Part shown: positions 5,956 through 62,177 of the stretch, one piece after another
How the letters are laid out: each line of letters begins with the position of its first letter
How positions within the stretch are numbered: position 1 is the stretch's first letter
From: Siphonodentalium dalli
Taxonomy: Eukaryota > Mollusca > Scaphopoda > Gadilida > Siphonodentaliidae
Assembly (NCBI GenBank): GCA_032622095.1
Contig: CP136062.1
Span: 155,428,875 to 155,492,874, forward strand
DNA length: 64,000 nt
Direction: 5' to 3'
Notes under the pieces: model-generated
What the model saw: only the letters and a program-made list of their open reading frames with translations
Database searches by the model: none
Told to the model about the DNA's origin: nothing
Position numbers and translations under genes: made by a program

Positions 5956-8298
5956 GTTGGTACCGTTAATTTATTTTATTGTTTAAAGATTCGAATGGGC
6001 ACCTAATTAGTACCTAAGGTAATTTCCAGATAATATCAATATCAAATATAACCAGAACGCGCCACATGGCTTTTTGTCTCTGGAAGTTACATAATTATAA
6101 TACATAAGACATGACTTTGTTCAGGAAATTGAACGGCACCGATCTCCAGTACCGGGGCTGTATACAAATCATATATTCCTTTCTTCAAATCGTCCATTGA
6201 TGAACTCGCGACTACAAAACAAGGTAAACTGTTCATGTTAGAAATTACACGTGAAAAACATATTTACGGATATCCTTTTTTAAGTATGTCCCTTGTAATT
6301 TGAGTTCATGTCCTCGGTTCCGTTTGTAATCAGCGAATACAAAATATTAACACCGGTCCGTGTTATACAAACCGTTCTGATATATAGAAACCTCGATAAA
6401 ATCGCCCCTAAGTCGTCTATTATTCATATATTTGAGTTTTACGATGCGTAAACCAGACATAAGAATAAACGCGATGTGTTGCATCCCAAAGGGATAATTA
6501 CACTCACTTCATTTGCTGTAGTATTTTCCCCATCGATATCCAAATATTAAATGCTTTTAAATAGGGTAATTATATTGGTATGGGAATGGACGTTGCATAT
6601 TAAATTTCGCTATGACAACGCAAGACGTCGCGGCAACGTCACTACAAAGTTCCCAATATTTAACAATAGTTCACATTTAATCTATGTGTGTATATAAGTG
6701 TATTACGGGTTGATAGTTTTCACTAAAATAACTATAATTATTAATCGACGTATCATAACAAAATGACAGATTGAATGGCATTTATCGTGTCCGACCAAAA
6801 ACTGTTCGCAATATACAGATATGGTAAATGGACCAATATCATATCAATTAGCCAGGCTGCTTAACAAAAGGTAAACAAATGTACGACAGATTATAAGACA
6901 TCGCTATCGCGACGAGCACTGACGGAAATCGTTATTGTATGCTGTAACCCTTGCTACACTAAAGCATCATTGAATAGTTGTGATCCCAAATGAAATGTTC
7001 AGACAATAAGCTCAACAAACGACCATTGTCTTTGTTGAACTTATTATCTGGACGGTTCCCTCAACAAATAGGGCTCCTTCTGCTATATTATGTATCTGTC
7101 GTCTGTTTTTATCACATAACATGCCTCCAAACAAATAATAGACTATTCCAACATACCGTCGTGCGTGCAAGTGAGTTAATTGTGGTCCTAAATATTCACA
7201 TAGGTTCATATTGAACTAATTTGATTATGACATAATCCCATAGAGAGCTTATACGGTTATTATATGTCGCGTCGATGAAAAAGTGACAAAAGAATTCCAA
7301 TATGGGCTTATTTATTATTGAAAGAGTCCCATAATGGACTGTTTTAAAACCCGCTTATATGTCCACATAGAGCATACATTGAGCCTATTTCGCACACAAA
7401 AACAAGCCCGTTATAAGCTTATTTTCACGAGAACAGGCTGATTATTCATATGTACACTTTCCAACTGACTATGAAAATCCATTTAGTATAGCAAGAGTTA
7501 ATGCCCCTCACCCAAAGTTAACTTAGTTAAGTATAAAATATTGGAAACGTTTACAACATAGCTGTGACATTGACAGATAATTTTCCCGAGAATACGAAGC
7601 CGGTATATTATTACGTCATGAATTATCAACCAACATGTATCATACCTCCTTCCAAATTATGTTGACAGAATTTGGAATCTCGAATGAGTCATTTGAGGAC
7701 TTAAAATATTTGTCAAATTTTACTCTTCAGGTACCAAATCGCTTCTATAATAATAAATAATTTCAGAAATCAAATAAATCATTACATACATTATTGTTTT
7801 GGCCATATGAGAGGAAGCTTCATTAATTTTGTGTCACAATGTTGATTTTATGATTTATTACATAGCACAGCCCCATATATTGCAATGAAGAATAAACCAG
7901 CCACATTTAGGCCAATACATTATTGCGGATCACCGCCTAACGATATATTAAGACATGTCTCCTCAGACCTTAAAATATATCTAGTAGTAATTTTAAATTC
8001 CTAGGCAAATATTTTGACAAGAACATTACAATAAAATTGAAAATGTCGACAAAAAAGCTTGGAAACACGGAAGATTTCTAACACAGTGTTTTTGGCAAAA
8101 AAAAAGCTTGGCATCACAAATTATTAACACCGATATGGAGAATAACAGTGTCGGTAAGATGATGTCATGTTTTATATTGCTTGCTACTATTTCCAGTTCC
8201 GCCTTTTCTAGCTATGCCTCTGCTGTAACAGTGCTGTTCACAATTGGTATTCTGAAATTCGATTTGTTGTTTGCATTGATTCATTCGCTATATTCCAG
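5956..8298 (+). other. Intron 1 of GTPase gene, copy 1
   Basis: This 2343 bp intron joins phase-1 exons (donor GTTGGT, acceptor TATATTCCAG). Apart from old repeat similarity near 7590-7720 I see nothing coding. At about 6694-6696 it carries the uninterrupted ATA target at which copy 2 has the 2.74 kb recombinase insertion. Confidence 0.8.
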
Positions 8299-16189: not shown

Positions 16190-19100
16190 TTAACCAGGAC
16201 AGGCGTGTTGGGACCCTAAAGGGACGGGACAGTAATTCTAGCTGGACCCGGGCCGTGGCTATTAATCTAACCGCGGGCGGGACAAATCGGTACCCTAACC
16301 CTAACCGGGGCGGGACGCGACTCTAACATTAACTGGGACGCGACCTTAGGCCTAACCCTAACCGGGACGGCATCTTAACCCTAACACTGAACAGGACGAC
16401 GCGGTATCCTAACCCTGACCGGACGGGACTATAAGTTGTATGTGGGTGTTCGGAACGGATTGTAACTTAACCATAACCGAACCTGGGCCCTACCCCGGAG
16501 CGAAACGGTGCGGGACCCCAACCTTAACCCAGACTGGACGAGACCGTAATTCTAGCTGGACCGTGACTCATAGTTCTAACCGCGGACGGAACAAGTCGGG
16601 ATCCTAACCGGGGCGGGACGAAACCCTAACTCTAACCGGGACGGGAAATAAAGCATAAACATAACCCTAACGGCAGCTTAACTCTAAGACTGAACAGGCC
16701 TAGTCCGACCGGACGGGACCATAACCTTTATGTTGGGGTCGGAGTGACTGTAACTTTAACCCTAACCGGATCGGGGCCCTATCCAGGAACTGAACGGGGC
16801 GGGGCCGTAAGCCAGGCAGGACGGGACCTTGACCCAACCCTGACGGGACATTAACACTGGCTACACCAATAACCCTAAACCTAAACGGCACTGGACGGCT
16901 CTGAACGGGAATTTAACCCTAGCCCTAACCGAGACGGGACCATGACGCTAACCGTTAGGGGAACCCAATACTAACCGGGACGTGACCACTGACCCTAACC
17001 TATTCGGGACGGGAGCTTAACCCTAACTCTAACCGGGACGGTTGGAACCTAACACTAACAATACTCGTAACCTGATGGTGGATCCGGATGGTCCGTACAT
17101 CGGACGGGACGAGCCGGGACCATAACAAGGAAGAGACGGGACCATAGGACGGTACCCTATCTCTAACCGGAACCCTAACCCTACCCCGGGGCGGAAGTCA
17201 GGGGAGGGACGTTAAAACTAATCATAACCATAACCGGGACGGCACCAGTCGGGGGCAATAACAATAACTGAAAAGAGGCCTTAAGCCTAACCACAAAGGG
17301 GACGGGACCTAAACCTTAATACGGACCAGAACGGGAGGTTAACATAACTACAACCGGGACTGGTGCTAAACCCTAACCCGTACCGAACGGGCGGGATTCT
17401 AATTTGGATGTGGTGGTTCGGAACGGTACTGTAACATAATCATGTCGGGGGTCTGACACGGAAATTAATTGGGCGGGACCCAAACACTAACAGGGCGGGG
17501 CCTATGCCCAACCCTGACCGTGACGGGACCTCAACCCTTGGCAAAACCATAACCCAAACCCTAAAGGGACTGGACGGTTCGGGCGGGAACTTAAACACAA
17601 CACAACTAACCTGGTCAGGGCCCTATCACTAACCGGTACGGAGCCTTAAACATAACCTTGGCGGGAGTTTAACCCTATCTGGTACGGGATGTTACTACAG
17701 TACTAACTGACAACAATCGTTACCTGGCGGGTAAACCCGACCTCGGACGGGACGAATCGGGACCCTAACCAGGACGGCACCCTAATATAACCTTTAACTG
17801 AACGTAACTGGTTGGAACGGGACCTTAACACTAAACGTAACCATAAAACCTGACGTTAACACTAACCATAACCGGGACTGTACGGCTCTGGGCTGGAATT
17901 TCATAATAACCATAACTGGGACGGGACCAGTCGGGACCCTAACACTAACCTGGACTGGACCTTTGTCCGATTCCTAACTCGAACTTGGACGGGACCTTGA
18001 GCCTAACCCATAACCGGGAAGGGACGGGACCACAACAAGGGCGGTATCCTAACAGTAGCAATAACTGGACGGATTGGAACGGGACCTTAACCCTAACCAT
18101 TACCCTAAACCGGGACCAGTGTCATGGGACGTCCGGGACGTTAACACTAACCTTAACGATAACCCTAACCGGGACTGGACGGCTCTGAACTGGAAATTCA
18201 CCAGAACCTGACTGCGACGAGACCAGTCGGATTCCTAACACTAACCGGGACTCGACCTTAGAGCCATATCCCTAACTCTAACTTGGACGAAACATTGAAC
18301 CTAACCTTAACCGGGACGGGAGCTTAACCCTGACAATAACCGGGGAGGTACCCCAAGATGGACGTGGCGGGATGGGACCATAACTCTAACCCTAACCGGA
18401 CGGGACGAGTCGGGAAACTAACCCGGGATGGAGAGAGACACTAACCCTACCAGAGTATGACCCTAACCATAACTGTGACTGGACGGCTCGGGAATGTAAA
18501 TTAGGCCTAACACTAACCCTAACTGGGACGGACCCTACCACTAACCGAAACGTTACGGTACCTTAAACCAACACCCAACTCAAACCGTGGCGGATGGGGC
18601 TGGACCTTAAGCCTAACCTAATTATGAGTGGACCCTGACTCGAACCGCGACATGGTCTTAACCTTATCTCTAACCGGAAGGGGACCGTAACACTATCCGA
18701 GATGTGACGGGACCGTAAACCGAGCCCTAACTCTAAGCGGGACTCGACATTAAAACTAACTCTAGCTAATCCGGGGAGGATGGGACCCAACCCTAATCGG
18801 GACGGAACCGTAACCCTAATTCTAACAGGTACGGGACTCTAACCCTTACAGGACGGGATGTAAACCTTAACCCTAACTGGTACTTGACCTTAAACCTAAC
18901 TCTAAGCCGAACCGTGTAGGGACGGGCCCTTAACCATAACTCTAACCGGGGCGGGACCTTTAGGTTCCCCTACCCAACCGCGGCGGTGTGTGCCGGCCCT
19001 TAATCCTACACTAATCCGAATGCCAGCGAGAGGACATTAAACCTATCTCTAATCCGAATCGGGGCGGGACGGGACCTTAACACTACCCATAACCGGGACG

Positions 19101-44152: not shown

Positions 44153-44896
44153 GTTGGTACCGTTAATTTATTTTGATTGTTTCAAGATTCGAATGGGTAC
44201 CTAATTAGTACCTAAGGTAATTTCCAGATAATATCAATGTCAAATATAACCAGAACGAGCCACTGGCTTTTTGTCTCTGGAAGTTACATAATTATAATAC
44301 ATAATACATAACTTTGTTCAGCAAATTGAACGGCACCGATCTCCAGTACCGGGGCTGTATTCAAATCATATATTCCTTTCTTCAAATCGTCCATTGATGA
44401 ACTCGCGACTACAAAACCAGGTAAACTGTTCATGTTAGAAATTACACGTGAAAAACATATTTACGGATATCCTTTTTTAAGTATGTCCCTTGTAATTTGA
44501 GTTCATGTCCTCTGTTCCGTTTGTAATCAGCGAATACAAAATAATAACACCGGTCCGTGTTATACAAACCGTTCTGATATATAGAAACCTCGATAAAATC
44601 GCCCCTAAATCGTATATTATTCATATATTTGAGTTTTACGATGCGTAAACCAGGCATAATAATAAACGCGATGTGTTGCATCCCAAAGGGATAATTACAC
44701 TCACTTCATTTGCTGTAGTATTTTCCCCATCGATATCCAAATATTAAATGCTTTTAAATAGGGTAATTATATTGGTATGGGAATGGACGTTGCATATTAA
44801 ATTTCGCCATGACAACGCAAGGCGTCGCGGCAACGTCACTACAAAGTTCCCAATATTTAACAATAGTTCACAGTTAATCTATGTGTGTATATATAG

Positions 44897-45037
44897 AATA
44901 CACCCATAGTAGCCGAGAATAACAAATTTTCACCACGAGTGGTATTGTGGTTTTAACCACGAGCCTTTGGCGAGTGGTTAAAACCACAATACCACGAGTG
45001 GTGAAATTTTTTTATTCTCGGCTACTATGGGTGTATT
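44897..45037. repeat. Long hairpin at left end of the Crypton insertion
   Basis: Arms of about 65 bases are nearly perfectly complementary: AATACACCCATAGTAGCCGA on the left pairs with TCGGCTACTATGGGTGTATT on the right. The inner part pairs through ATTGTGGTTTTAACCAC and its complement. The loop contains CGAG, CCTTTGG, CGAG. The inner half is closely related to the solo hairpins at 8704-8765 and 49,648-49,709. Confidence 0.9.
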
Positions 45038-45439
45038 TTGCTTATACCATAATTATTATTCTTTAGTCGCTTCGTAAATGTATTTACTGGTATTGCTACT
45101 TTGTTGTTAAAATGCAGTGACCCAAATATTCGAAGCTACCAGGAATGTGGGACACGCGTAGCAATACATACTTCAAGGTCATTCCGTGATCCGCCACTTT
45201 CTGGGGCATCAATCAACTGATATGAATACACATTCAGATTTCAATCATTGAAGATAACAGTAACAATCTATGTTTGATTTAAATGGCTGTATTTTAATAT
45301 ATTAATGACATCAAAACAATATCCAATTTTGAATAAATCTTTGAATGAATCTAACACATGAACTATTTTTTTGTTGGGAACAAAGTTGGAGTCAGTTAAA
45401 ATCCAACGTGGGAAATTCGAACATTAAAATGCACTGTTT

Positions 45440-47092
45440 TCATTCACTTCCTGGCAAATGGATATTTAAATTGTCAATCTGTATGTGGTTGTTGCTGAAC
45501 AAAGAAGATAAACTTCTCCCAACTGTTGACGGAATGTCAAAGTCGCGCATGTTTACGTTGACAGTTTTCGAATTTTGTGTGCAGGAAAGCACATTGCAAG
45601 ATGCAGTTTCGTTGGGTTGCACATTTTCGCTTCTTGTTGTGACTATTGAACTTTCTTGGATTGGAACTATGTCCATGGAGTGATTGGAATTACTTGACCG
45701 TGGATTAGACTTAGAGTTGTTTCCGGAGGTAAGTGTTGACATTGTGCTGCTCAATAGGAGTGAACACCTTTCCCTTTCCTTTTCACCTGATGTTGAATAA
45801 TTGTTTATACTGGCCAAATTTTTATGCCCAGTAATTGCGGCTATATCAATAGGCGCCACATCATTTTCACGAAGCTTTTGCACAAGGTGTTTTCGAGCGC
45901 TCGTATTTGTCAATCTTTTATTTTCGTCGAGACCACCTTGTTTCGCCATGACCGACATCAATGTTGAAAGTTTATTCACTCCAACTTTTTGGCGCTTAAA
46001 CCACATATCGGCAGGGTGTTCAACTGGTGTTGTACGAGGCGCGATGTAAAATGGATCCTCTGATCCATTCCATCCAGATGGCCGTTTACTGGCATACAAC
46101 ATGTATATGTAGACTGGGTTACGTTCATCGGTTTCTTCTGTGCTGTACATTTTTGGTGCAGTTTCGCGCACGTTTCTAATATCCGCGCCTGTCCTGGTTT
46201 TCGTCTGTCTCTCATTCAACTGGAGATACTGTTTTCCATCATTTGTTGTTGTCAGCATCGCGTCACCCCACTGCAAATTGTAATGCTCCTGCACTCCCCG
46301 TAAACCAAACTGCACAGTGTTATTGAACCAAAGTGTATTCAGAATAGAAATTGGCGTTTTTTCTCCAAGAATTTTCTTTTCGTACAATAGGTCTATCTCA
46401 TAGTCACAGATTGGTTCCGCTTTCTTTGGCTTATTTCCTTTGCCACACCTTTTAAACTGCTTTTGTTTAGCGATTAATGCCCTACGTGATGTTTCGAAAG
46501 AGTCATCCTGCTTGTTCATCACTGAGGTGCCATACTTGTGCCGCTTTAAATATCGATCAAAACTAGAAATTTGTCCTCTTAGTGAACTGGGCTCGAAATC
46601 AGTTCCATCTTTCCGCCGAACACTCAGAATGTACTTTGCAATTAGGGGGTCAAGCTCGATTACCGGTATCTCATGAATTTCTCTTGATTCCGACTGTGCA
46701 GCTAGAAATACCTTTAATAGTCGAATGTCAGTCATAGATTGTTTCAGTGTGTGCTTGCTTTGCTGGTCTGTGATGAAACTTTCTACACTGTCACTGTTCA
46801 ATTCAGCAAATCTCTGTGCATCATTAGGCATACTATTTGGATAGTTATGTGGAGGTGTATCTGCCTCAGCTGGCTCATTGATCACAGGACTGGTGTCTGC
46901 ATCCATTCCCATGCCATGTTCACTGTCTGCTGATTCTTCATTGTGATCATTGTGATTGTCAAATTCACCTGTACTTTCTAAATCCAAGCTATCATTGGAA
47001 TTATCATTCATTTCTGTGGTAAAATTCTGCATTAGTTCATGGTCATTAAAGATGTCGTCTAAATCACTTGCACAAGTAAAGCCTCCGAACAT
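45440..47092 (-). CDS. Crypton/DUF3504-type tyrosine recombinase (KIAA1958-like), intact
   Basis: A 550-aa single-exon frame on the minus strand. Residues 1-90 are acidic and Asn/Ser-rich; 117-200 look like the helical core-binding region (DIRLLKVFLAA, then LRGQISSFDRYLKRH); 230-435 form the catalytic domain; the rest is Ser/Asn-rich. All active-site positions are present: R265 (FGLRGVQEH), K298 (RQTKTRTG), R400 (TNTSARKHL), H423 (ITGHKN) and Tyr432 (SINNYS). R-to-H spacing is 23 and H-to-Y spacing 9, as in Cre-type recombinases. The HxxR histidine position is Thr397. DUF3504 in ZMYM2, QRICH1 and KIAA1958 is a domesticated Crypton recombinase; here the single exon, intact site and recent insertion favour a live transposon gene. 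The start at 47,092 is the first Met of the open frame. Confidence 0.9.
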   Translation of the reverse strand: MFGGFTCASDLDDIFNDHELMQNFTTEMNDNSNDSLDLESTGEFDNHNDHNEESADSEHGMGMDADTSPVINEPAEADTPPHNYPNSMPNDAQRFAELNSDSVESFITDQQSKHTLKQSMTDIRLLKVFLAAQSESREIHEIPVIELDPLIAKYILSVRRKDGTDFEPSSLRGQISSFDRYLKRHKYGTSVMNKQDDSFETSRRALIAKQKQFKRCGKGNKPKKAEPICDYEIDLLYEKKILGEKTPISILNTLWFNNTVQFGLRGVQEHYNLQWGDAMLTTTNDGKQYLQLNERQTKTRTGADIRNVRETAPKMYSTEETDERNPVYIYMLYASKRPSGWNGSEDPFYIAPRTTPVEHPADMWFKRQKVGVNKLSTLMSVMAKQGGLDENKRLTNTSARKHLVQKLRENDVAPIDIAAITGHKNLASINNYSTSGEKERERCSLLLSSTMSTLTSGNNSKSNPRSSNSNHSMDIVPIQESSIVTTRSENVQPNETASCNVLSCTQNSKTVNVNMRDFDIPSTVGRSLSSLFSNNHIQIDNLNIHLPGSE

Positions 47093-47468
47093 TTTAACAA
47101 ATATAATAGCAAATTGTTGTTGTAAAATTGTAAGCAGTCGTTCGCTTTAAAAACACGGACGCAGACGAACATGTGCGTTTGTTTTTGTTTACATTCTCAA
47201 CAGAGGTCACCGACCTAGATAAACGATTTTGACTCAGTCGGTGCAGCTGGATAAAACATCGTTAAACTAACTTTAAACTGTCATTTTTCGACAAGTAAAC
47301 ACTAGTATATGGAATTGTGTATTATATATCTATGTATTCAGACCACTCATCGCATTTAAGAGCGTTTTGGATTCGAAAAAATGTGTATTTACTTCGCGAA
47401 GCGGGCGTGACGAAAAATTGGGCCAAATATCGACAGCGAGGTCGCCAAAGGTCAACTGCGGTGTAGTT

Positions 47469-47567
47469 CTACTGTGGGTATAAAGCTTAACCCACGAAGT
47501 GCCGTTGAAATATTTACACAACAGTAAAAATTTACACCAATAGTACGAATCTTTATACCCACAGTAG
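47469..47567. repeat. 17-base inverted repeat upstream of the recombinase gene
   Basis: CTACTGTGGGTATAAAG (47,469-47,485) and its exact reverse complement (47,551-47,567) are 65 bases apart. They lie 380-475 bases upstream of the recombinase ATG on its sense strand. Each arm includes a TATAAAG that could act as a TATA box, one on each strand. They could instead be binding sites for the recombinase; both ideas are inference. Confidence 0.8.
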
Positions 47568-49242
47568 GGTGTAAAGATGAAATTTACAAAATAGGTGTTA
47601 TACACACAATAGCATAGCCAATTATGGTATAAATAAGTGTATTACGGGTTGATAGTTTTCACTAAAATAACTATAATTATTAATCGACGTATCATAACAA
47701 AATGACAGATTTAATGGCATTTATCGTGTCCGACCAAAAACTGTTCGCAATATACAGATATGGTAAATGGACCAATATCATAGCAATTAGCCAGGCTGCT
47801 TAACAAGAGGTAAACAAATGTACGACATATTATAAGACATCACCATCGCGACGAGCACTGACCGAAATCGTGATTGTATGATGTAACCCTTGCTACACTA
47901 AAGCATCATTGAATAGTTGTGATCCCAAATGAAATGTTCAGACAATAAGCTCAACAAACGACCATTGTCTTTGTTGAACTTATTATCTAGACGGTTCCCT
48001 CAACAAATAGGTCTCCTTCTGCTATATTATGTATCTGTCGTCTGCTTTTATCACATAACATGCCTCCAAACAAATAATAGACTATTCCAACATACCGTCG
48101 TGCGTGCGAGTGGGTTAATTTTGGTCCTAAATATTCACATAGGTTCATATTGAACTAATTTGATGATGACATAATCCCATAGAGAGCTTATACGGTTATT
48201 ATATGTCGCGTCGATGAAAGAGTGACAAAAGAATTCCAATATGGGCTTATTTATTATTGAAAGAGTCCCATAATGGACTATTTTAGAACGCGCTTATATG
48301 TCCATATAGAGCATATATTGAGCCTATTTCGCACACAAAAACAAGCCCGTTATAAGCTTATTTTTCACGAGAACAGGCTGACTATTCATATGTACACTTT
48401 TCAACTGACTATGAAAATCCATTTAGTATAGCAAGAGTTAATGCCCCTCACCCAAAGTTAACTTAGTTAAGTATAAAATATTGGGAACGTTTACAACATA
48501 GCTGTGACATTGACAGATAATTTTCCCGAGAATACGAAGCCGGTATATTATTACGTCATGAATTATCAACCAACATGTATCATACCTCCTTCCAAATTAT
48601 GTTGACATAATTTGGAATCTCGAATGAGTCATTTGAGGACTTAAAATATTTGTCAAATTTTACTCTTCAGGTACCAAATCGCTTCTATAATAATATATAA
48701 TTTCAGAAATCAAATAAATCATTACATACATTATTGTTTTGGCCGTATGAGAGGAAGCTTCATTAATTTTGTGTCACACTGTTGATTATATGATTTATTA
48801 CATAGCACAGCCCCATATATTGCAATGAAGAATAAACCAGCCACATTTAGGCCAATACATTATTGCAGGATCACCGCCTAACGATATATTAAGACATGTC
48901 TCCTCAGACCTTAAAATATATCTAGTAGTAATTTTAATTTCCTAGGCAAATATTTTGACAAGAACATTACAATAACATTGAAAATGTCGACAAAAAAGCT
49001 TGGAAACACGGAAGATTTCTAACACAGTGTTTTTGGCCAAAAAAAAGAAGCTTGGCATCACAAATTATTAACATCGATATGGAGAATAACAGTGTCGGTA
49101 AGATGATGTCATGTTTTATATTGCTTGCTAATATTTCCAGTTCCGCTTTTTCTAGCTATGCTCCTGCTGTAACAGTGCTGCTCACAATTGGTATTCTGAA
49201 ATTCGATTTGTTGTTTGCATTGTTTCATTCGCTATATTCCAG

Positions 49243-61675: not shown

Positions 61676-61679
61676 TTAA

Positions 61680-62173
61680 AGGCACGTGAGGCCTTACTTG
61701 TCGAAAATATTCATATTTGTTCCAATCACCGTAAACAGAAAAACATTAAAACGCATACAGTTTCGTTCATATATACCATGACCATCGCGTAAACAGCATG
61801 TTATCATAAAGATTTACTATATTTTACCTAAGCAAGAGCAAGATTGTGTTACAGAAGACAGCACAGTGCTGCTGGCTAATCACACACAAATGGCATAAAC
61901 GCTCTTTATTCGTTCCATATCAGGAATTCACCAACAAAGAACGCTCTTTATTTTTAACATCATAATATAAACAAACACCAGAAAAGTAACTTTTTATGCT
62001 TTTGTTTACATAACAATGGTCAAAGATATGACAATAACATACTGTTTATGCGATATTTCTTATTTGTATACGGACAAAGTCTGTCTACATTTTGTTGTTC
62101 TTTCTGTTTGTGGCGTTATTTGACGGGTGGAAATATTTTCACAGGATACCCACCGCCAAGGCCAACCGTACCT
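61680..62173. mobile_element. piggyBac-like MITE inserted at TTAA (copy 2 only)
   Basis: Copy 1 has an uninterrupted GCTGTTAAGACAAAG at about 21,030; copy 2 has 494 extra bases flanked on both sides by TTAA (61,676-61,679 and 62,174-62,177). The element starts AGGCACGTGAGGCC, and the reverse complement of its right end reads AGGTACGGTTGGCC, an imperfect terminal inverted repeat. Exact TTAA duplication is the mark of the piggyBac superfamily. It has no open frame of note, so it must depend on a transposase from elsewhere. An internal direct repeat AACGCTCTTTATT occurs twice near 61,900-61,955. Confidence 0.85.
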
Positions 62174-62177
62174 TTAA

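Follow-up and report, generated by a model that had tools for sequence, protein, structure and literature searches.

A Crypton of the scaphopod Siphonodentalium dalli ends, on the 3′ side of its tyrosine recombinase gene, in a long predicted hairpin with four CTCG motifs on one strand, and the same build is shared by 11 DUF3504 recombinase families of this genome. The element lies in the window, by which we mean the whole 64,000-nucleotide stretch analysed here (contig CP136062.1, positions 155,428,875-155,492,874, in a 2.2-Gb genome of 9 contigs). We read it as a new structural variant of Crypton with a folded 3′ end, the folding being predicted from the DNA, that would be needed in cis. The explanation that we favour, with moderate confidence, is that the element excises as a circle through its two ends and that the 3′ hairpin is recognised in its folded state. 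The original prediction for this locus had pointed to the insertion and its recombinase, and mentioned neither the terminal hairpin nor the internal inverted copy of the 5′ end.

The insertion, its gene and its copies

The window contains a direct duplication of at least 22 kb (269-22,856 versus 38,467-63,997, the window end), whose arms are 93-97% alike in blocks spaced 38-41 kb. The second arm carries a 2,742-bp insertion and the first is uninterrupted: the alignment of the filled arm breaks at 44,893/44,894 and 47,635/47,636, that of the empty arm at the single point 6,696/6,697, and the flanks of the insertion are 97% alike between the arms over the compared stretches of 892 bp and 868 bp. 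These breaks agree with the limits and the empty site that had been proposed, and the wording 'recently inserted' stands in so far as the element is absent from one arm, its recency being relative to the duplication only. ATA is common to both junctions, and the edges of the element are ambiguous by 3 bp because this triplet, at 47,633-47,635, is present at the left junction too. Further indels between the arms lie near 18,202-18,584 (~380 bp) and near 61,679-62,174 (~495 bp).

A scan of the element for unspliced stop-to-stop frames of more than 112 aa found the recombinase alone. The uninterrupted 550-codon frame of the original prediction was recovered, and it matches DUF3504 over residues 234-382 (E 6.9e-27); a match to Phage_integrase is weak (residues 366-435, E 0.006, below the family cut-off). 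A profile built from eight of the genome's families reaches QRICH1 at E 2.4e-15; its matches to solved tyrosine recombinases are weak and fall in their C-terminal part (Int 6emz, 0.0013; XerA 5hxy, 0.011; XerC-like, 0.035). Family names (F1-F12, the window element belonging to F1) were assigned in this analysis by protein and end sequence, and the catalytic R, K, R, H and Y are all present in the alignment of F1-F11 (11/11). The R-to-K spacing of Cre is 28, and its R-H and H-Y spacings are 23 and 9. In the window recombinase R400-H423 and H423-Y432 are likewise 23 and 9 apart, the Cre-like spacing first claimed, and R265-K298 is 33. The histidine of HxxR is Thr in F1-F4 (Thr397 in the window element) and His in F5-F11. 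Judging from sequence, spread of the elements does not seem to require this histidine, since the Thr-bearing families hold near-identical copies (98-99.7% alike in F2-F4; two F1 copies 99% like the window copy). A structure prediction of the recombinase alone had a mean pLDDT of 34 and was not used.

At least 115 stretches of the genome match the DNA of the element (the best 40 of 2,193 candidates were scored) and, besides the window copy, at least five match all or nearly all of it at 95-99%. Among eight copies that were cut out, the intact 550-codon frame is found in L001 (the window), L002 and L003, the latter two being duplicates of one other insertion; the frame of L005 is open over 525 codons, and the remaining four are broken. 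Shorter copies lack the gene and retain only the two ends, one over ~380 bp and the other over ~520 bp. Because the copies share their ends, a second intact insertion exists and gene-less derivatives occur, we read the element as an autonomous Crypton family, domestication of the gene being unlikely on the evidence of this genome, and it is apparently young and intact. The same dispersed copies bear out the earlier call of a Crypton with a complete recombinase. Segmental duplicates were left out of the counts, namely L003/L009 (of L002), L010/L011 (of L008), L015/L016 (of L013/L014), L030 (of L029) and L038 (of L037).

This genome is Crypton-rich. Copies of several DUF3504 families are 98-99.8% alike, and the rarity expected of intact animal Cryptons with known ends does not hold here. 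At least 150 DUF3504 matches lie above the Pfam cut-off (the best 150 of 1,168 candidates), many of them near-identical. Family F12 (L072, L074, L089, L090) represents a second type of DUF3504 recombinase, with VRAYKRT around the tyrosine, that departs from the others around the catalytic residues (L072 and L074 aligned). It has a sharp 3′ end, ...GGTTTA, and copies that are 99% alike over 1.2-1.3 kb.

A 3′-terminal hairpin with fixed internal loops

In gene orientation the hairpin stands at the 3′ end of the element, and an inverted copy of the 5′ terminus adjoins it on the inner side (Table 1). The hairpin is the sole inverted repeat of at least 30 nt with a gap of at most 300 nt that a scan of the window found. 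Folded as DNA, the stretch 44,894-45,054 (minus strand) reaches -67 kcal/mol, with a z of -18.6 against 200 shuffles. The build is common to 11 DUF3504 families (F1-F8 with both ends, F9-F11 from the 3′ side only) and consists of an outer stem of ~30-45 bp, a CTCG/CTCG loop, an inner stem of 19-29 bp, a second CTCG/CTCG loop and a small apical loop or stem-loop. All four CTCG are on the gene-sense strand and are exact in 10 of the 11 families, the fourth being CTCA in F3.

Between families, the median likeness of the outer arms is only 0.375, and no pairs other than F1/F2 (0.85) and F8/F11 (0.65) exceed 0.6. Watson-Crick pairs fill 320 of 324 anchored cells (nine families, 36 columns), against a mean of 140 and a maximum of 167 in 1,000 partner shuffles, the families being related and the 324 cells not independent events. 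At least two pair types occur in 35 of these 36 columns. Pairing was counted on CTCG-anchored columns, and not by a covariance model, because stems of unequal length would not align by sequence. F3, with one changed motif, and F9, with a 2-nt bulge, failed the strict parser and stand outside the 324 cells, their structures having been read individually. That this structural motif persists in 11 families despite their divergent sequences suggests a specific recognition step. For the antisense strand, in which the loops become CGAG/CGAG (tandem G-A), the predicted folds are more stable than those of the sense strand in all 11 families with both DNA and RNA parameters, the margin being 0.2-7.0 kcal/mol as DNA.

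A uniform scan of 43 non-F1 loci (L049-L091), chosen for copy number or diversity, found at least four same-strand CTCG in the hairpins of 26, three in four, one or two in five and none in eight. The four-CTCG hairpin of L068, one of the 26, is a separate upstream one of other sequence, and the end of this locus itself is of the F3 type, as are the ends of L067 and L088; the separate hairpin (389-532, G000:C5) has the same build and lies ~0.2 kb upstream of the F3 element. Two of the four loci with three CTCG, L055 and L077, are other repeats. L077 holds a 150-bp palindrome (1,633-1,783, G000:C4), 87% self-complementary and of a differing build, downstream of an F7/F8-like DUF3504 frame. The misses comprise the F12 loci and L069, L073, L079, L086 and L091; in these last five the end possibly falls beyond the sequence that was fetched (as it does in L091) or has decayed. 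Hairpins are damaged in L070 and L071, and the apical part is gone in L062.

Family F1 provides 22 independent readable insertions, in which the hairpin is full length (10), shortened (11) or carries an insert (1). Eight of the 10 full-length hairpins have all four motifs, L008 having three and L020 two. Almost every shortened hairpin has break points seen in no other insertion, and full-length hairpins are present in the gene-less derivatives L034- and L037. Long palindromes tend to be lost, and most simply the copies would have a complete hairpin on arrival and lose it after insertion.

Two other accounts of the 3′ end were rejected. Palindrome flipping was expected from the end-like sequence on both sides of the hairpin, but the loop CCTTTGG points the same way in every F1 copy compared that keeps it. 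A hairpin inserted separately beside an element with terminal inverted repeats is at odds with the same end at independent sites and in 11 families. Foldback repeats of other kinds occur at these loci as well. A short dispersed one (CCAATGCATTCTCTTATATATGCGAG...) lies at L072 2,558-2,626, at L075 2,779-2,828 and inside the hairpin loop of the F1 derivative L035. Related long foldbacks, both with TTGTTGCCATTCAT, lie at L056 4,413-4,573 and L082 1,906-2,055 (reverse-complement count), and are apparently another inverted-repeat transposon.

Element ends, inner copy and target sites

In gene orientation, F1 starts with (T)TTATACCATAATTGG and finishes with ...GGGTGTATTCTA, usually followed by TATAT. 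Both ends are common to the copies found in the genome search, in line with the original prediction, and different ends were seen in truncated F1 copies only. Within each of F2-F8 (two or three copies fetched per family at first) the copies agree, and on either side their similarity stops at one point, give or take a few bases. The 3′ end is disturbed in the F5 copies L055 and L056, and the end of F5 was taken from L057, L078, L085 and L087. All eight families with both ends (F1-F8) start with TTTAT.

In the same eight families the first 10-14 nt of the element recur, exact and inverted, at 2-7 nt from the hairpin (45 nt ahead of the hairpin were searched). As a control, 1,000 random stretches of the same element gave longest matches of 6-10, below the true match every time. 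The inner copy and the adjoining hairpin arm together form an inverted copy of the junction expected from joined 3′ and 5′ ends.

Two empty sites are clear. One is that of the window and the other, answering the call for empty sites elsewhere, is that of the F7 copy L061, which lies inside a repeat. Across the junction, the joined flanks of L061 are matched at 97% by at least 40 places and at 79% by one more; this search comprised 15 queries, and the best 40 of 6,426 candidates scored were all the L061 target repeat. Six of the 40 matches, read individually, do not differ from one another over the 80 nt compared. Copies of this repeat, ~97% alike, are located at G000:C9:58,638,324-58,638,475 and 39 other places. 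The third site is L034, where one derivative is nested in another: compared with the form of the target in L035, L037, L038, L040 and L041, its junctions share ATA and no bases are lost. Junction-shared bases therefore number three in the window, one at L061 and, if the shorter target form applies, three at L034. DDE transposases usually leave a fixed duplication. At these sites the Cryptons insert without a target-site duplication of fixed length, with 1-3 bases shared at the junctions. An ATA target-site duplication, suggested by the first two sites, was rejected because L061 shares one base.

Among 40 flanks on the 3′ side, 38 start with TAT, and the counts at positions 1-7 are T 39, A 39, T 40, A 35, T 39, A 25 and T 35; at L061 the first two flank bases, TA, are contributed by the element. 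The 5′ flank is weak, with A at -7 in 29 of 40. Flank lists were compiled from exact end patterns, with internal copies removed and 3′ flanks hand-aligned at TA. The 5′ pattern needs T before TTATACC and misses L007, L017 and L037, and the 3′ pattern misses copies with changed arms. Such junctions would be expected of a tyrosine recombinase that uses an A+T core of few bases together with a half-site similar to the element's own terminus.

Table 1 Features of the Crypton and of its empty site (positions in the window)
Feature	Position	Strand	Evidence
Whole Crypton insertion, 2,742 bp	44,894-47,635	- (gene strand)	Breaks against the empty arm; ends matching other copies
Empty site, other arm of the duplication, GTGTATATA^AGTGTATT	6,694-6,697	.	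Arm comparison
3′-terminal hairpin, 141 nt; 69-nt arms, 91% complementary, 3-nt gap	44,897-45,037	-	Repeat scan and DNA fold
CTCG (CGAG on +), outer internal loop	44,936-44,939	-	Sequence and predicted pairing
CTCG, inner internal loop	44,960-44,963	-	Sequence and predicted pairing
CTCG, inner internal loop, faces 44,960-44,963	44,971-44,974	-	Sequence and predicted pairing
CTCG, outer internal loop, faces 44,936-44,939	44,995-44,998	-	Sequence and predicted pairing
Inner inverted copy of the 5′ end, TTATACCATAATT	45,042-45,054	.	100% inverted match to 47,620-47,632
Tyrosine recombinase, 550 aa, DUF3504; R265 K298 (T397) R400 H423 Y432	45,440-47,092	-	Frame, profile match, alignment
Subterminal inverted repeat on the 5′ side; two 20-nt arms separated by 59 nt, by eye similar to the hairpin arm	47,469-47,567	.	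Repeat scan
Half-site of the gene-side 5′ terminus, AATTATGGTATAA on +, 13 bases directly before ATA	47,620-47,632	.	Inverted repeat; end comparison

Proposed mechanism and alternative explanations

We postulate that the element would excise as a circle through recombination of its two ends, and that it would reinsert at a TATATA-like site resembling its own end. The hairpin would be required in cis and recognised folded, either as a cruciform or as a single strand. This need in cis is suggested because gene-less derivatives keep a full-length hairpin and because the shortened F1 hairpins are mostly private to one insertion. By analogy with the extrahelical bases of integron attC sites, the same-strand CTCG loops may give the hairpin a polarity, and the inner copy of the joined ends may hold the ends together, as proposed for DIRS1. 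A broader version of this idea is that a large clade of animal Cryptons has a recombinase that reads a hairpin with fixed mismatches, and not a duplex, as bacterial integron integrases do, with ends that carry a DIRS-type junction copy; this we put forward only tentatively.

Several points weigh against the folded, cis-required hairpin. The circle, the excision and the folding are all predictions from sequence. F12 does not have a hairpin, and the hairpin is deleted in the F5 copy L056. Half of the readable F1 insertions (11/22) carry a shortened hairpin, and L026 and L034+ have one deletion in common (36-59), which could reflect recurrent slippage, the stretch being flanked by direct repeats; if any copy moved while damaged, the hairpin or its motifs would be dispensable. 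At the target of L034, the copies L036, L042 and L001 carry 7 extra bases, and from that form 7 bases would have been lost. All hairpin families come from one genome, and scans of viral and prokaryote contigs returned no relative. In the list with the solved recombinases, ATP synthase subunit b is matched as well, at 0.02-0.2, by the N-terminal part of the profile; these matches are probably due to chance, and the matches to recombinase structures therefore count as modest support. Lastly, the CTCG motifs could be double-strand binding sites.

Taken further, this last point gives an ordinary Crypton in which the hairpin is used as a duplex with four CTCG sites for the recombinase or a host factor, and in which arm-to-arm gene conversion keeps the stems alike. 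Such a process would explain why the outer and inner arms of F1 carry the same short variants in combinations that differ between copies, and the frequent shortening of F1 hairpins also speaks for it. However, conversion should erase the CTCG/CTCG mismatches, which are kept at both places in 10 of the 11 families, with one base changed in F3, and by eye little sequence beyond the four bases is common around the CTCG sites. We hence regard the duplex as a serious but rather unlikely alternative.

It is more doubtful still that the hairpin acts as RNA, forming a structured 3′ end of the recombinase transcript with a role in stability, export or cis-preference of the protein. Its position 3′ of the gene in 11 families fits this idea, as do the very stable folds predicted for the sense-strand RNA (-96 to -138 kcal/mol). 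Nonetheless, gene-less derivatives keep the hairpin, the sense strand is the less stable one in 11 of 11 families, and in multi-copy families the hairpin ends a few bases from the insertion boundary.

A DIRS-type retrotransposon pathway might instead move the elements, the inner copy completing a single-stranded copy and the Crypton recombinase only integrating the circle. The layout (5′ end, then the inverted 5′ end with the hairpin arm, then the 3′ end) is that of DIRS1-like termini, which have 3′ internal complementary regions, no target-site duplication and a 3-bp junction (PMC3266345; papers are cited throughout for the passages drawn on here). Yet the only frame of more than 112 aa is the recombinase, which matches DUF3504, and the tyrosine recombinases of DIRS and Ngaro elements are reported not to match DUF3504 (PMC3212892), making this pathway very improbable. 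A domesticated DUF3504 host gene, as found in jawed vertebrates (PMC3212892), or a chance difference between the duplicate arms can practically be dismissed, given the dispersed copies with the same ends and differing flanks, the nested insertion at L034 and the catalytic residues that are kept.

These findings have implications for the study of Crypton movement, which the Crypton literature drawn on here argues by analogy with prokaryotic elements. Both ends, empty sites, catalytically complete recombinases and the structured end are now defined in one genome, and excision and insertion are therefore directly testable with short constructs. A DIRS1-like layout without a reverse transcriptase also bears on the role of internal complementary regions and on the origin of tyrosine-recombinase retrotransposons. 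If the folded-end reading is true, such ends would serve the recombinase, and might be older than reverse transcription or independent of it. In addition, ZMYM2-4, QRICH1, KIAA1958 and KCTD1 are domesticated descendants of Crypton recombinases (PMC3212892), and what the ancestral protein bound is thus of wider interest.

Comparison with known systems

Animal Cryptons were described in 2011 by Kojima and Jurka (PMC3212892). The passages of their survey considered here report no terminal repeats in animal Cryptons, nor any in a CryptonI element and its derivative, of which 50 copies were compared, and gene-less derivatives were already described there; the words 'palindrom' and 'hairpin' are absent from its main text. 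According to a curation guide, nothing but short direct repeats sets Cryptons apart (PMC8969392, in the part consulted). No such hairpin end is mentioned in the Crypton passages of PMC5753468 and PMC4157794, or in the titles and abstract openings of the literature on Crypton palindromes or hairpins, inverted repeats and DUF3504 recombinases. Within this limited set of sources, with Repbase entries outside the comparison, the hairpin end is undescribed for Cryptons.

The window element resembles CryptonA in that the only gene found is a DUF3504 tyrosine recombinase in which no further domain was seen, gene-less derivatives keep both ends and no target-site duplication of fixed length is seen (PMC3212892). 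It also keeps the catalytic residues of tyrosine recombinases (R-H-R-Y) that are lost in domesticated DUF3504 genes. Unlike CryptonA, it has a 3′ hairpin with CTCG loops and an inner inverted copy of the 5′ end, and the HxxR histidine is Thr in F1-F4. The outermost two ends of the element are not repeats of each other. The absence of terminal repeats is, in the same survey, an observation on the known CryptonA members and not a requirement (PMC3212892). The likeness to CryptonA is one of features, and the element may also belong to CryptonV or CryptonI. Fungal Cryptons have short terminal direct repeats of 4-6 bp; here the 3′ flank reads TATAT against TTTAT at the 5′ end, ATA being common at two sites and one base at the third.

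Helitrons are DNA transposons that likewise have one hairpin near the 3′ end and an A+T target (PMC8969392). They differ by their HUH enzyme (PMC5753468) and TC...CTRR ends, neither of which the window element has.

In DIRS1-like elements, inverted copies of both ends lie together near the 3′ end, no duplication is made and a circle via a 3-bp junction has been proposed (PMC3266345). The window element shares this arrangement, including the lack of a duplication and a junction overlap of ~3 bp. It differs in its DUF3504-type recombinase, its short 5′ repeat (10-14 bp exact) and its lack of a second long frame: no reverse transcriptase or RNase H gene, and no second frame of more than 112 aa, was found in the element. 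The passages on DIRS1-like elements do not mention a CTCG hairpin (PMC3266345).

The parallel with bacterial integrons concerns the hairpin itself. The crossover of attC lies within the folded stem, whereas that of the window element would lie at the hairpin foot. In attC it is the structure with its unpaired bases, and not the sequence, that steers a tyrosine recombinase to one strand (PMC2727003). Both systems use a tyrosine recombinase and keep a hairpin structure with unpaired features while the sequence varies; attC, however, belongs to bacterial gene cassettes, and the use of a single strand is shown for attC and would apply to the window element by inference (PMC2727003). By these analogies, the element combines features like those of integron attC sites with features like those of DIRS1 in a Crypton in which no reverse transcriptase was found.

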